27,068 nt of DNA from positions 1-27,068 of IMG/VR virus record IMGVR_UViG_3300034064_000117. The stretch is one strand, 5' to 3'. The notes beneath the pieces are model-generated. The model was given only the letters and a program-made list of their open reading frames with translations, did no database searches and was not told the DNA's origin. The position numbers were made by a program, and so were the translations under genes. This DNA is from a virus. Shown in pieces: positions 15,145-20,477 of the stretch (position 1 is its first letter; each line of letters opens with the position of its first letter).

Positions 15145-15417
15145 TTACGGTGTTCTCCAATGTATATGGGATGCTACCCACTGAAAAGCATACGGGATAG
15201 CCATACCAATAATAACGATAACACCACCGATATACGCAATCTTTTCTTTTATAGCTGTCTGGAATACCTGAAGTTCTTCTACTTCTTCTTTCAATTCAGC
15301 AATATCTTTAGCACACTGCTCAGACTGAGGCAGACTTTTAATACCATCTTTCATGTATTCTTGATTGGCTTCAATTCTAGCCAACCTCTCCGCTACCTCA
15401 ATCTGCCACTGTTCCAT
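15145..15417 (-). CDS. Coiled-coil protein with C-terminal membrane anchor
   Basis: In this 90-residue protein, residues 1-60 are highly charged and heptad-like (ERLARIEANQEYM, DIAELKEEVEELQVFQTAIK). Residues about 61-84 form one hydrophobic segment (AYIGGVIVIIGMAIPYAFQW). The build resembles XhlA-type haemolysin or other small lysis-accessory proteins found before endolysins. An inner-membrane spanin component is a less likely alternative, as those usually have the membrane segment at the N-terminus. It precedes the endolysin by two bases, so it belongs to the lysis cassette. Confidence 0.6.
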   Translation of the reverse strand: MEQWQIEVAERLARIEANQEYMKDGIKSLPQSEQCAKDIAELKEEVEELQVFQTAIKEKIAYIGGVIVIIGMAIPYAFQWVASHIHWRTP

Positions 15418-15423
15418 GCTTTA

Positions 15424-15720
15424 TTACCCAATCATCTTAATGTCGGGATTAGTACCAATCGTTGCAAGAAGAATCTGACGGCTAACATCATTTGTCTTTA
15501 CCATTTCATTCCTGAAACTCTCGACGGCGGAACCTGTCTGGCGCTGCTGCTGTGAGTTCTCGATGAGGAGAACCGGGAGCCACGTTATGGCGCAGCCCCA
15601 CTCGTCAACGTCCTTGCCAGTGTTCGGGTTCGTGCCGCGCACTTGGGTGAACCAGTTGCACTGGAGCCCCTTGCACTCACCCTTGATCAGCGGACAGAAC
15701 GTGCCGGGTTTAAGCTGCAT
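15424..15720 (-). CDS. Conserved Cys-containing phage protein, fibre-adjacent
   Basis: This 98-residue protein begins MQLKPGTFCPLIKGECKGLQ and contains cysteines at 9, 16, 21 and 43 plus EWGCAITWLPVLL and ENSQQQRQTGSAVESFRNEM. The pattern is familiar from small phage proteins of unknown function, often near fibre or lysis genes, and the cysteines may bind metal. The first two thirds (about 15520-15720) are GC-rich and the last third is not, so a composition border falls inside the conserved QRQTGSAVESFRN stretch. It lies three bases after the fibre gene. A role as a fibre assembly partner is a guess from co-transfer. Confidence 0.65.
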   Translation of the reverse strand: MQLKPGTFCPLIKGECKGLQCNWFTQVRGTNPNTGKDVDEWGCAITWLPVLLIENSQQQRQTGSAVESFRNEMVKTNDVSRQILLATIGTNPDIKMIG

Positions 15721-16180
15721 GGTCAGTTCTTCGACGCAATGATGAGGTCGACGTACTGGACGGCCATGTTGAGCGTGGTCGAGAAGGAGTGGTTGTGTGC
15801 CGTTCCGGTGAAGGAATGCGTGTGAGTTTCGCCGGAGCCTACTGAGCTTGTAAGCCCCGTGTCCGCGACAACCGTCGAGCCAGTCAGATCGTAATTGTAG
15901 TTTGTGCTATAGTTGGCGGTGTCTCGAACGTAGCTCGTATTGCTCAATGTCCCACTGCCAGTGCTGGCAACAACAAGATGCTGGTGGCCCGGAAGCTGGC
16001 CGACCGTGAGAGCAGTGCCGCCGATCGTGCCCGTAGCAGTAAAGTTGTCGACATTGCCGGAGACCGTGCGATTGGCGAAGGCAGTGCTGAAGGCGACAGA
16101 GCCGCCAGAACTTACGGCGCCGCTGACGACACGCAGGGCCTTATCGTTGTGAGTAGTGTCCTTCGTCCAACCTGTCGGTG
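15520..16180. other. GC-rich block spanning the end of the fibre gene and start of the next
   Basis: Hand counts give 36/60 GC at 15601-15660 and 39/60 at 15961-16020, against 27/60 at 15481-15540 (itself crossing the border) and 28/60 at 16441-16500. Codon choice also changes (GTC, CTC, GGC, GCC instead of GTT, CTT, GGT, GCT). The borders lie near residue 160 of the fibre protein and near residue 67 of the following protein. This is best explained by import of a fibre-tip cassette by recombination. Confidence 0.7.
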
Positions 16181-16661
16181 CCGAAGTCTGCTGAAAGAGC
16201 ATACGTGTGCCAGATGGTATAGTAGAACTCAGACTGTTTGTAACATAGGTTTGAGTAGCAAGTGTCTGCCCTTCAACAGCTAAGACACCAGCAGATACTC
16301 TAGAAATTGTTGTATCAGAGGCGTTACCAAGTTCAATATTCCCTGCCGTAACAAGACTACCAGATGAGTCCACGGATACTCTTAGAGTTCCACCAGTGCT
16401 AAAACCAATTGTATCAGCAGCAGGAAAATAGATACCCGTATTCGTATCACCTGTTACTGTAATAGAGGGTGCAGCAGCAGAACCAGCAGCATTAGAAACC
16501 TGACCAGTAAAGGTAGGCGAGGAAGAAATTTCACCTTCGACATAAGTCGCAATCTGAGCACCAGTAACCTTCTTACTGGTCCCACTCTCATTAACTTCAA
16601 ACTGCTGTGTACCGGATACCGATGCAGCGGAAGTTAGATCTGAGATTTTTATGTTAGCCAT
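15723..16661 (-). CDS. Tail fibre with His-rich tip, mosaic
   Basis: This 312-residue fibre has an N-terminal part (1-145) with MANIKISDLTSAASVSG and repeated beta segments (TGDTNTGIYFPAADTIGFS) that are common in phage fibre shafts. The tip starts at IPSGTRMLFQQTSAPTGW (148-165), a widespread motif of receptor-binding fibre ends. It holds histidine clusters GHQH (225-228), ETHTHSF (278-284) and AHNHSF (288-293) that could bind metal ions, as HxH motifs do in the T4 long tail fibre tip. The tip (from about residue 160) is GC-rich and probably imported. It would bind the host surface. It lies downstream of other fibre-related genes and upstream of the lysis cassette. Confidence 0.8.
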   Translation of the reverse strand: MANIKISDLTSAASVSGTQQFEVNESGTSKKVTGAQIATYVEGEISSSPTFTGQVSNAAGSAAAPSITVTGDTNTGIYFPAADTIGFSTGGTLRVSVDSSGSLVTAGNIELGNASDTTISRVSAGVLAVEGQTLATQTYVTNSLSSTIPSGTRMLFQQTSAPTGWTKDTTHNDKALRVVSGAVSSGGSVAFSTAFANRTVSGNVDNFTATGTIGGTALTVGQLPGHQHLVVASTGSGTLSNTSYVRDTANYSTNYNYDLTGSTVVADTGLTSSVGSGETHTHSFTGTAHNHSFSTTLNMAVQYVDLIIASKN

Positions 16662-16664
16662 AAG

Positions 16665-16964
16665 TTAGTAAATCCTCTTCCAAGCATCATTCATGAACCT
16701 GTAAATACTAATCGGTGTAACCCAGACACCTTCTTTATTAACAGAGGGAGATCCAATCTTCCAATTAGTTAGATACTTAACAAACAGTTCAGAGTTAAAT
16801 GGTATATACGTATCAGTAGCAACGAGAGAACCAGTAGCGTTATTCTCACTTATGTTTTCTGTAATTCTGGTATCACCAGACTCGGTTACTCTGGTATCTC
16901 CTGCTTCTGTTAACCTTTCAAATGGTACAAGAATAGATTCGAATTTAGCATTAAGAATTGCCAT
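16665..16964 (-). CDS. Small structural-type protein with 8-residue repeats
   Basis: This 99-residue protein carries TEAGDTRV and TESGDTRI in tandem (residues 19-34), followed by a shorter TEN. The same kind of repeat is seen in fibre-associated phage proteins. After it come an Asn/Ser-rich linker and a compact C-terminus (SIYRFMNDAWKRIY). It sits between two fibre-related genes in the adhesion cluster and is probably a virion or fibre-assembly protein, with no firm function. A weak AGAAAGA ribosome site precedes the ATG. Confidence 0.6.
   Translation of the reverse strand: MAILNAKFESILVPFERLTEAGDTRVTESGDTRITENISENNATGSLVATDTYIPFNSELFVKYLTNWKIGSPSVNKEGVWVTPISIYRFMNDAWKRIY
16863..16910 (-). 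repeat. 24-bp tandem repeat in coding sequence
   Basis: Two diverged 24-base units encode TEAGDTRV and TESGDTRI in frame, with a partial third unit (TEN) after them. Multiples of three preserve the frame, so unit number could vary between related phages. Confidence 0.65.
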
Positions 16965-17374: not shown

Positions 17375-17668
17375 CTATGAAGATACTTTAAACCAGACAT
17401 CTCCGTCTTCACCACCAGAAGGAGAAGCTGTACTAATAGTAACTCGATTAAACAGAGCGAAGATATCTACACCGTTAACGTACAATCCATCAGCATTCAT
17501 AATCGAATTACCATTCATGTCCAAGTCCGCATTCATGGCATTCGGAGTAGATCCATCGAGGGAGAGTGTATTCTCAAATCCATTCCTAAGATTATTAAAG
17601 TTATCATTAATGGTATCAGTTGCCTGATAGCCAGTACTAACTGTACTAATATTAGGTTTCTTAGCCAT
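17375..17668 (-). CDS. Orphan fibre-adaptor protein (fibre N-terminal module)
   Basis: This 97-residue protein is MAKKPNISTVSTGYQATDTI, then DNFNNLRNGFENTLSLDGST, PNAMNADLDMNGNSIMNADG and YVNGVDIFALFN. This is the N-terminal attachment and shaft-start module that usually opens full-length podovirus fibres, here ending after about 97 residues with an SPSGGEDGDVWFKVSS tail. It starts inside the stop of the previous gene (TAATG); a TTG start 9 bases earlier is less likely. It may be a stand-alone adaptor onto which separately encoded fibre subunits dock, or the remnant of a split fibre. Confidence 0.7.
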   Translation of the reverse strand: MAKKPNISTVSTGYQATDTINDNFNNLRNGFENTLSLDGSTPNAMNADLDMNGNSIMNADGLYVNGVDIFALFNRVTISTASPSGGEDGDVWFKVSS

Positions 17669-18129
17669 TACAACCAAACCCTCGCGCGATTGTTTACGAC
17701 AGCCGGATCAAAGAGGCAGACGCCGTTCGGACCCTCATAACCACCGGGAACACCCGGACCGGGAATAGCCGTCCAGACCATGCCGGGGATAAGAGACAGG
17801 ATATTTGTTCTCTCGAAAACAGAGAGGAGATTACCCTGTGCGTCATACTGCGGAAGGACTGTAGGCTTGCCCTCTGCATCCGGTGGTCCCATCATGAGGA
17901 GAGACACGATAGGATCAATAGCGAGGAGGTTAACGTGATGCCCTGCAACAGTAACATCCTCAGACTTAACGATTGGTCCGATCTCATCAATGATGACCCC
18001 TTCATGCGGGATCAACCTACCATCAGCATCAAGGGTAGCCAGCATTGAGCCATCAGGGAATGCTGTACTAGTCATGCCGTCGATGAAGAGTTGACGGGAG
18101 GAACACCATGCAAAGATTTCAATAGCCAT
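17668..18129 (-). CDS. Unknown protein in the adhesion cluster
   Basis: This 153-residue protein starts MAIEIFAWCSSRQLFIDGMT. It contains IIDEIGPIVKSEDVTVAGHH (about residues 46-65), LLAIDPIVSLLMMGPPDAEG and a Pro/Gly-rich end (WTAIPGPGVPGGYEGPNGVC). I do not recognise a family. It is TAATG-linked to both neighbours, which are fibre genes. The 3' end is GC-rich (38/60 at 17701-17760) relative to the virion genes, another sign of mosaic origin. A fibre chaperone or a fibre-base subunit would be plausible; neither is shown by the sequence. Confidence 0.6.
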   Translation of the reverse strand: MAIEIFAWCSSRQLFIDGMTSTAFPDGSMLATLDADGRLIPHEGVIIDEIGPIVKSEDVTVAGHHVNLLAIDPIVSLLMMGPPDAEGKPTVLPQYDAQGNLLSVFERTNILSLIPGMVWTAIPGPGVPGGYEGPNGVCLFDPAVVNNRARVWL

Positions 18130-20477
18130 TAGACAGTCCTCGCTTGCAGTTCGGTATTAGACAGACGGCGCGGGATGTAGGTGATCTGGCGAACCCATCC
18201 AGTGGTGAATGCGCCACTGTTTTGCGCAATGTTGACAAATGAACCTACAGAGTATCCGGCGACAACAGTACCAGTGGTAACACTTGTACCATTAGCCACG
18301 ACTGCACGACCAGTTGCATCATATGCGCTTGCAAACTTTGAAACAGGCCCGGTTACATCCTCAGATGTCCCAACAATAGTTACGCCATCATATGACGCTG
18401 CCGCACTTGCTCCAGATCCGATATAAGCAATTCGCTTATTCTGATCATTGTTAAGGCCAAGGATGTATACTGTTGTTGGCACTGCACCAGATACTTGCGT
18501 CTGGAAATTTACGACCCATGAACCAGCGGTTTCGCTGTATGGAAACTGGCTGGTACTTACGCTGACAACATCAGCAGCGCGGGTTACAGTAGCAGCCCCG
18601 GTCGGGATGTAGCTGGTGGCGAAGGAGGCGTTCTCTTCCGCCATGCCTCCATATACAAGTACGGATACACCAGACGCACCAGTGACGCGCGTAAGGAAAA
18701 CTGGGTTCGCCGTGACCGATGGAGCAGCACCAGCAGTGAACGTGGTAATAGCGCGATACCAACCGTTGCCGACATTATGCACAGATGAAACGGTGTTGCT
18801 ATCGCTACTTACAGTTACGCCAGTGCTTCTAACTGCGAAAATTGCCGTCCAAGACAAATCCCAGTTTACTGTGCTGTTATACTCAAGCGAAACGTCCACA
18901 TCGTAACCATCGTATTTAAAGTATCGACTAATCACATACTTTCGCCCGCCAACCGTCGTCATATTGGTTGCAGTGGGAAAATACCTCGGAGTTGTTGCAT
19001 CCGTTTTTGACACACGAACAGCACTCATGGTGCCATCGGGCGAAATTGCAGCGTTAGCCGTAGACGAAAGCCCCGTACCCATAGTAGGTGCGTTGCTGGC
19101 AAGAGCTAAATTTGTCCTCTGCTCCTCAACGAGAAGCCCCTTTGCAGCCAAAGTTGCGCCATCAAAATCCAGTCTCGGCCCGTAATACGCAGCGGCAGTC
19201 GGTGCGGCTCCGTAGTTAGGCACGTAAGGGTCAATGCTGGCGCTGTCGGAAAGCTGTGCGCCCCAGAGGTAGATGCCAGAGATGCCATCTCCTGTGTAAG
19301 ATGTTACGCTTGGAGCGTTGCAGAAATTAAGCTGCCAATATCCAGTTCCAGAAGCTGTTGCCACCGCAGTCGCAGAAATGCGATACCAGCCGTCCGCAAG
19401 CGCAACAATTGTCGCCGTACCAGTTCCACTTCTGTTGGTCACTGTGCCGCCGCCTGCCAATGAATATTCGGCAGTGTAAACAACACTGGTTGCCTGATTT
19501 ACAAGCTGAACAATTGAACGGCCAGCGGGCTTTACATATGCTGTCCAAGTGTAAGGTGTCGTGTTAATTGCATTAGCAAAAGTACGATAAATGTTATGAC
19601 CGCTAGTACCAGTATCCTCCACAAGAAGAGATGCACTAAGCAACCCATTCGGAGAAGTTGTCGCATTTGCTACAGAGCCAGACCCAATCGCTTTAATGCC
19701 AGCGAGTGTCCAGCCTGTTCCGCTTCCGTAAGACTCAGTGAACCCCAGCAAGTTCTTCGGTGTAGTCGGATAATATGTTCCAAAGCCAGCAGGCTGGGCG
19801 GGGTTCTGTACCATGCCGCCAAGGTCTGAGCGGTAGAGGTGTGCGCCCCAGATGTAGATGCCTGAACCGTTTCCGAGATACGACTCATAGCCGCCAGCAC
19901 TTGCCGTGATAACGCCCGTTTTATTAGGCGCAGAAACTGCACGTAAAAACGATACGGATGTGCCAATAGTGCATGTCACTGAGCAATAGTACCAACCGTC
20001 ACCAACGCTGGAAATGGTCGGAGTACCTACAACTGCGTAGCCCGTTCCTGAAGCCCCGCTGGTCGCCAAGGCTCCAGTTGCAAGATTAAACACTGCAACC
20101 GCATAAAGGGTGCCGCTTGAAATATCCGATACACCAAGTGTCATATAGTCAAGTGTGTTCTTCTTGGCGAAGATACGAACAACTACATCTCTTCCAGACA
20201 AGGCATATGAAGTTATGTCTTGAGCGGCGTAATGAATGTTGTTCACTGCGGTATCAAGGAGACTGTCTGCGGTATTCGTACCGTTGGGTGCGGTTGTAGC
20301 ATTGGCCGTAACGGTCGTTGCCACCTTTGACCAATTGCTGCTCTCAAACTGCTCACTCGCCAGCAGGAGGTTGTGGGGAGCCCACTTGATCTTGCCGTCG
20401 CTGTCCGTCACCGTTGCATTCGACGTTCTAGAGAACGTGATTAGGTCTGTAGCGATGCCTGTCTGTACTGTTGCCAT
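18129..20477 (-). CDS. Large fibre with three carbohydrate-binding-like modules
   Basis: This 782-residue protein is built of three similar beta-sandwich-like modules. Module 1 is about 36-215 (NLLLASEQFESSNWS, GDGWYYCSV, GIYIWGAHL), module 2 about 242-410 (NLLGFTESYGSGTGW, ADGWYRISA, GIYLWGAQL) and module 3 about 456-612 (NLALASNAPTMGTG, GNGWYRAIT, VLVYGGMAEE). The C-terminus (about 645-782) ends VRQITYIPRRLSNTELQARTV, a pattern common in LamG-like surface-binding fibre ends. It would bind host polysaccharide. There is no obvious hydrolase motif, so depolymerase activity is not claimed. Codon use differs from the core virion genes. A GAGGT ribosome site precedes the ATG. Confidence 0.78.
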   Translation of the reverse strand: MATVQTGIATDLITFSRTSNATVTDSDGKIKWAPHNLLLASEQFESSNWSKVATTVTANATTAPNGTNTADSLLDTAVNNIHYAAQDITSYALSGRDVVVRIFAKKNTLDYMTLGVSDISSGTLYAVAVFNLATGALATSGASGTGYAVVGTPTISSVGDGWYYCSVTCTIGTSVSFLRAVSAPNKTGVITASAGGYESYLGNGSGIYIWGAHLYRSDLGGMVQNPAQPAGFGTYYPTTPKNLLGFTESYGSGTGWTLAGIKAIGSGSVANATTSPNGLLSASLLVEDTGTSGHNIYRTFANAINTTPYTWTAYVKPAGRSIVQLVNQATSVVYTAEYSLAGGGTVTNRSGTGTATIVALADGWYRISATAVATASGTGYWQLNFCNAPSVTSYTGDGISGIYLWGAQLSDSASIDPYVPNYGAAPTAAAYYGPRLDFDGATLAAKGLLVEEQRTNLALASNAPTMGTGLSSTANAAISPDGTMSAVRVSKTDATTPRYFPTATNMTTVGGRKYVISRYFKYDGYDVDVSLEYNSTVNWDLSWTAIFAVRSTGVTVSSDSNTVSSVHNVGNGWYRAITTFTAGAAPSVTANPVFLTRVTGASGVSVLVYGGMAEENASFATSYIPTGAATVTRAADVVSVSTSQFPYSETAGSWVVNFQTQVSGAVPTTVYILGLNNDQNKRIAYIGSGASAAASYDGVTIVGTSEDVTGPVSKFASAYDATGRAVVANGTSVTTGTVVAGYSVGSFVNIAQNSGAFTTGWVRQITYIPRRLSNTELQARTV

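Follow-up and report, generated by a model that had tools for sequence, protein, structure and literature searches.

Probable import of a tail-fibre tip across a gene boundary in an SIO1/Cobavirus-like phage, with a four-cysteine neighbour as its putative partner

Why does a GC-rich stretch of phage DNA begin inside a tail fibre gene and end inside the next gene? The locus lies in the window, that is, the whole 27,068-nucleotide virus record analysed here, which stems from a water-dwelling phage. Its terminase shares 74-76% identity with those of Lentibacter phage ICBM1, Celeribacter phage P12053L and roseophage SIO1, and by its sequence the phage is a member of the SIO1/Cobavirus-like group. 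The genomes of this group have a variable region beyond the terminase that encodes tail fibres (PMC6775973). The order of transcription on the minus strand is a 782-aa tail protein, several small proteins, the 312-aa fibre, a 98-aa neighbour, a holin-like protein and an endolysin (Table 1). We consider it probable that a cassette of about 0.7 kb was imported into this phage by recombination from a GC-rich phage, and that the neighbour serves the fibre tip as a dedicated partner. An import across the gene boundary had already been proposed in a preliminary description of the sequence, and composition, trees and donor matches support it.

Table 1. Coordinates of the fibre-neighbour locus and of a comparable gene in sibling phages (window positions unless a locus is named).
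Feature	Position	Strand	Remarks
Tail fibre gene, 312 aa	15723..16661	-	residues 1-153 are the resident N-terminal half
Fibre tip, residues 154-312	15726..16202	-	HxH at 226-228, 280-282, 289-291
Neighbour gene, 98 aa	15424..15720	-	Cys 9, 16, 21, 43; codons 1-70 imported, 71-98 resident
Upstream flank, 99-aa protein	16665..16964	-	resident; 91-99% aa identity to closest siblings
Downstream flank, holin-like protein	15145..15417	-	resident; phrog_689 holin, E 3e-5; 97-99% aa identity to closest siblings
Imported segment (outer limits), tip and neighbour codons 1-70	15496..16203	-	from GC segment, donor matches and crossover intervals
Upstream crossover interval	16198..16203	-	ATGCT, codons R153-M154-L155
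Downstream crossover interval	about 15496..15511	-	AATGAAATGGTAAAG, neighbour codons 71-75 (N-E-M-V-K)
65-aa fibre-assembly-like protein in the neighbour's slot	L156:2189-2383; also L090:1380-1577		near-identical sibling phages

The maximum-likelihood single GC segment between 14.5 and 17.3 kb spans positions 15522-16183, with a GC content of 0.592 inside and 0.415 outside (log-likelihood gain 32), and no other 640-bp stretch of the window is as rich in GC (0.591 versus at most 0.530 anywhere else). Composition changes sharply at both borders. GC at third codon positions (GC3) jumps from 0.25 to 0.70 after codon 153 of the fibre gene and falls from 0.81 in codons 1-70 of the neighbour to 0.36 in codons 71-98, each time at the permutation floor of the change-point test (p=0.002). 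Among 12 other genes used as controls, only tail782 showed a GC3 change-point, a weak one (p=0.02). The switch in GC and codon choice had been placed beforehand near fibre residue 160 and neighbour residue 67, which is off by a few codons at most. Higher GC (0.51) also marks a second block, at 17668-20477, which holds a 153-aa protein and the 782-aa tail protein. The 153-aa protein is 74-83% identical in amino acids, and at most 76% in DNA, to its counterparts in the GC-rich phages L012, L015, L019 and L020, and the block suggests an older exchange of further tail genes with the same GC-rich group.

Siblings whose terminases are 97-100% identical to that of the window have the same flanks and, in most cases, the same N-terminal half of the fibre; their islands differ. 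DNA identity between the window and its closest siblings is mostly 0.9-1.0 outside the island and drops to 0.13-0.6 in the tip's middle part; the flanks reach 92-97% and the N-terminal half of the fibre, which matches the tail fiber proteins phrog_18345/28766, 90-92% (16200-16661). Some siblings (L085:8001-9020, L007:3953-5020) have in this half an additional repeat (IELGHASDTT...VIAVEG), about 35-40 residues long, a duplication that the window lacks. The best matches of the island itself come from phages with a GC content of 0.55-0.63. It is 81.5% identical in DNA to L013/L088 over 676 nt and 80.9% to L020 over 680 nt, and reaches 94% with L011 over 304 nt and 93% with L019 over 302 nt; over the whole island, no sampled donor exceeds 82% identity. 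Within the DNA compared, the matches of L011, L013 and L020 to the window are confined to 15467-16217, and the N-terminal halves of the donor fibres differ from that of the window.

Trees of 15 sequences were built separately for the tip, for neighbour codons 1-66 and for neighbour codons 70-98. The window groups with the donors in the tip tree, where grouping with the siblings is rejected (p-AU 2e-8), and again in the tree of neighbour codons 1-66 (p-AU 4e-4 for the sibling grouping), and returns to the siblings in the tree of neighbour codons 70-98 (support 91/100). Separate segment phylogenies had been proposed in the preliminary description, with one phylogeny for all segments as the outcome speaking against an exchange. 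Since the segments lack a common phylogeny, this objection falls. The same trees reject the idea that strong selection altered the sequence and codon use of the tip in place. Receptor-binding tips do evolve fast and the middle of this tip is hypervariable, but an equally sharp GC3 shift (0.81 vs 0.36) lies inside the conserved neighbour, whose imported part is 92-94% identical in DNA to other phages, and we give next to no credence to change in place.

Both crossovers can be confined to short intervals. Upstream, the siblings are identical to the window as far as ATGCT and donor L008 is identical to it from ATGCTC on, which puts the exchange at the R-M-L codons directly before FQQTSAPTGW. Downstream, donor L011 follows the window through the 15 nt of AATGAAATGGTAAAG, at the end of QRQTGSAVESFRN, and all siblings follow it from the start of the same stretch. 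The exact sequence common to window, sampled donors and siblings is thus a short microhomology of 5 nt upstream and 15 nt downstream. Conservation around these points was assessed as mean DNA identity across 172 fibre-neighbour pairs, taken from pairs less than 60% alike. The upstream border stretch IPSGTRMLFQQTSAPTGWTKDTTH has a mean identity of 0.61-0.68, compared with at most 0.28 upstream of the border, and the downstream stretch LIENSQQQ..SFRNEMVK has 0.64-0.67, compared with 0.28-0.38 beyond it, while values of 0.06-0.35 are found in the middle of the tip. The earlier proposal that the borders lie in conserved stretches thus extends to the family as a whole; the position it gave them had to be corrected, both crossovers being located at the edges of the stretches it named. 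Border conservation follows the protein, and third positions add little. Hence, the conserved stretches would be useful recombination arms, probably by accident of protein constraint. We propose that the exchange ran through two short stretches conserved in the protein, one where the tip begins (RMLFQQTSAPTGW) and one in the neighbour, its SFRNEMVK helix, and that a changed receptor specificity would be its outcome.

Exchange at this locus is not confined to the window phage. Sibling L082 combines an L025-like tip with the resident neighbour and the tip has moved alone; sibling L085 begins its tip with an L025-like part, continues with a different middle, and has taken its neighbour from an L008-like phage. 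These two mosaics therefore place a third border at the conserved end of the fibre (MAVKYIDLIIAS). One sibling (L089/L156) carries an unrelated tip, and the slot of the neighbour holds a 65-aa protein matching phrog_4628 'tail fiber assembly' (E 2e-8); L162 has a different tip without a partner gene. Tip and neighbour can, to judge from such mosaics, move jointly or apart, and they would be movable in either way because they lie head to tail between conserved arms. The suggestion that the two travel together therefore holds for the window phage and not for L082, where the tip moved alone, or for L085, where it was mainly the neighbour.

The sibling mosaics also bear on whether the window is a chimeric metagenome assembly, in which reads from two phages were fused where their sequences are conserved and the mosaic exists only in the contig. 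Both junctions lie within conserved sequence, and exact searches for either junction, with the window's own record left out, found no second contig, so that a single contig carries the mosaic of the window. However, a chimera would need two false joins within 0.7 kb of each other, both leading back to one and the same backbone, the exact stretches shared with donors (5 and 15 nt) are shorter than usual assembly words, and the L082 and L085 mosaics, which have the same borders, were each assembled identically from two separate metagenomes. We therefore regard a chimeric assembly as improbable and recombination between phages as the better account of the island.

What was imported can be described from the tip itself. 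Three HxH motifs are present in the window tip, and alignment A2 has two HxH blocks that are fully or almost fully invariant. In T4 gp37, iron is held by HxH pairs (Bartual 2010, cited in PMC11705849). A profile of the tip matches solved tail fibres (9qgo, E 2e-9; 9nxk, E 4e-6), and no chain named T4 gp37 was among its matches to solved structures; a query with the whole fibre gave chance matches only and was set aside for the tip profile. The Pfam family Gp10_C is touched weakly by 19 of 50 tip members. At some loci (L251, L252, L072, L378, L380), a single neighbour gene is preceded by a tandem array of two or three short HxH tip genes (about 160-180 aa each), which looks as though alternative tips had one common partner.

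The neighbour belongs to a family with 563 matches in one viral scan, in which four cysteines are 99-100% conserved, suggesting a putative metal site. No match to it was found in Pfam, PHROGs, NCBIfam, the PDB or plasmids, and a search by locus tag found no literature on the member from P-SSM2. The family appears to be undescribed, and the exchange of fibre tips itself is a known kind of event. Pairing with the tip is close to universal. For 203 distinct neighbour genes with enough upstream DNA, a PxGW+HxH fibre directly precedes the neighbour in 183; for each of the remaining 20, an HxH fibre lies no more than about 2.7 kb away, being upstream and on the same strand for 19 and, for Synechococcus phage S-B43 (L235), downstream and on the opposite strand. 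Counted in reverse, from loci fetched by the fibre, the neighbour accompanies 45 of 45 HxH tips. An independent set of bacterial genomes gave an HxH fibre at 31 of 33 prophage loci, among them loci in Phyllobacterium, Mesorhizobium, Oceanisphaera, Nitratidesulfovibrio and Paraburkholderia. The pair also occurs in isolates: in the Prochlorococcus myovirus P-SSM2 the neighbour is gene 029, which follows a 'tail fiber-like' gene, and in roseophage CRP-361 it is gp40, where the tip is part of the large unannotated gene that precedes it. Genes for 2OG-Fe(II) oxygenases, which are common in marine phages, adjoin the pair in 36 of 114 loci with enough flank (e.g., L072:5681-6277, L062:5969-6490, L233, L234).

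At the level of sequence the fit is less strict. Across the family, the neighbour sequence tracks the tip sequence at short range only, and allele-specific fit is therefore loose; the pairing is one between gene families, with sequence versions loosely matched beyond close relatives. The neighbour family falls into two subfamilies. A general breakpoint inside the neighbour, considered on account of a family-wide distance correlation of 0.13 between its two parts, was discarded, as the drop vanishes within each subfamily.

The idea, raised before, that tip and neighbour also act together is favoured by this near-universal pairing. From the pairing we infer for the neighbour the role of a partner dedicated to metal-binding tips, either an assembly cap or a metal-handling protein. 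It would most likely help the HxH tip, which is probably loaded with metal, to fold, trimerise or take up metal through the four-cysteine site, perhaps staying on as a cap. A simpler possibility, to which we assign a considerable if less than even chance, is that the neighbour is the tip's ordinary fibre-assembly chaperone, like T4 gp38, Mu Tfa or V22 gp27, and has no metal role. It is encoded directly downstream of the fibre, and in sibling L156 a phrog_4628 fibre-assembly protein occupies the same slot. However, the neighbour matches no chaperone family profile (Pfam, PHROG, NCBIfam, PDB), and four invariant cysteines are not reported for such chaperones in the literature cited here. Moreover, a Phage_tail_APC-like protein is encoded within 2.5 kb of the neighbour in 39 of 114 loci and adjoins it in CRP-361 and P-SSM2, so that equating the neighbour with the usual fibre chaperone would be too simple. 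A role in lysis or another function, with a position beside the fibre by chance, is very improbable: although the neighbour precedes a holin-like gene and an endolysin in the window, the genes on this side vary between phages and the HxH fibre is present in nearly all of about 240 virus and prophage loci. Taking the dedicated partner further, the neighbour might found a new family, as yet without a name and spread worldwide, of four-cysteine metal proteins (iron-sulfur or zinc) that load or protect HxH tips, the iron-bearing tip and its partner forming a receptor-binding unit exchangeable across several phage families; we hold this wider reading to be rather unlikely.

Several known systems resemble parts of this picture. 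The distantly related Alteromonas phages A5, V22 and P24 have in common host-recognition modules of a fibre and its cognate chaperone (PMC10579305, PMC7289586). As at our locus, the partner follows directly after the fibre and both are exchanged between unrelated phages. However, these phages share whole modules, with DUF4376-like chaperones of 195-240 aa that resemble intramolecular chaperones, whereas at our locus the crossovers lie inside both genes and what moved was just the tip and part of a 98-aa four-cysteine protein. Metaviromic islands of marine phages likewise distinguish near-identical genomes by a short receptor-recognition island, sometimes a single domain (PMC3909814). While those islands were found by read recruitment, the donor group, the crossover intervals, the repeated exchange at fixed borders and a partner family are resolved here. 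Repeated HxH motifs, predicted to bind metal in the window tip, are shared with the iron-binding tips of T4 gp37 (Bartual 2010, cited in PMC11705849), V22 gp23 (PMC10579305) and Alteromonas phage R22Y (PMC11705849), for which, in the literature cited here, a constant four-cysteine partner such as the neighbour is not described. Finally, domain-shuffled phage receptor-binding proteins also combine a conserved anchor half with an exchangeable distal half (PMC10684548), but the unit exchanged here extends into the next gene.

The locus thus catches receptor-tip exchange in wild phages at near base-pair resolution. As fixed borders are reused, unrelated phages can supply tips to the conserved N-terminal half of the fibre. 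In cyanophages, roseophages and prophages of cultured bacteria, a major class of fibre tips has at its side a small cysteine protein that current family libraries lack. If this protein handles metal, genetics would offer a test of the proposal that iron is carried by phage fibres.
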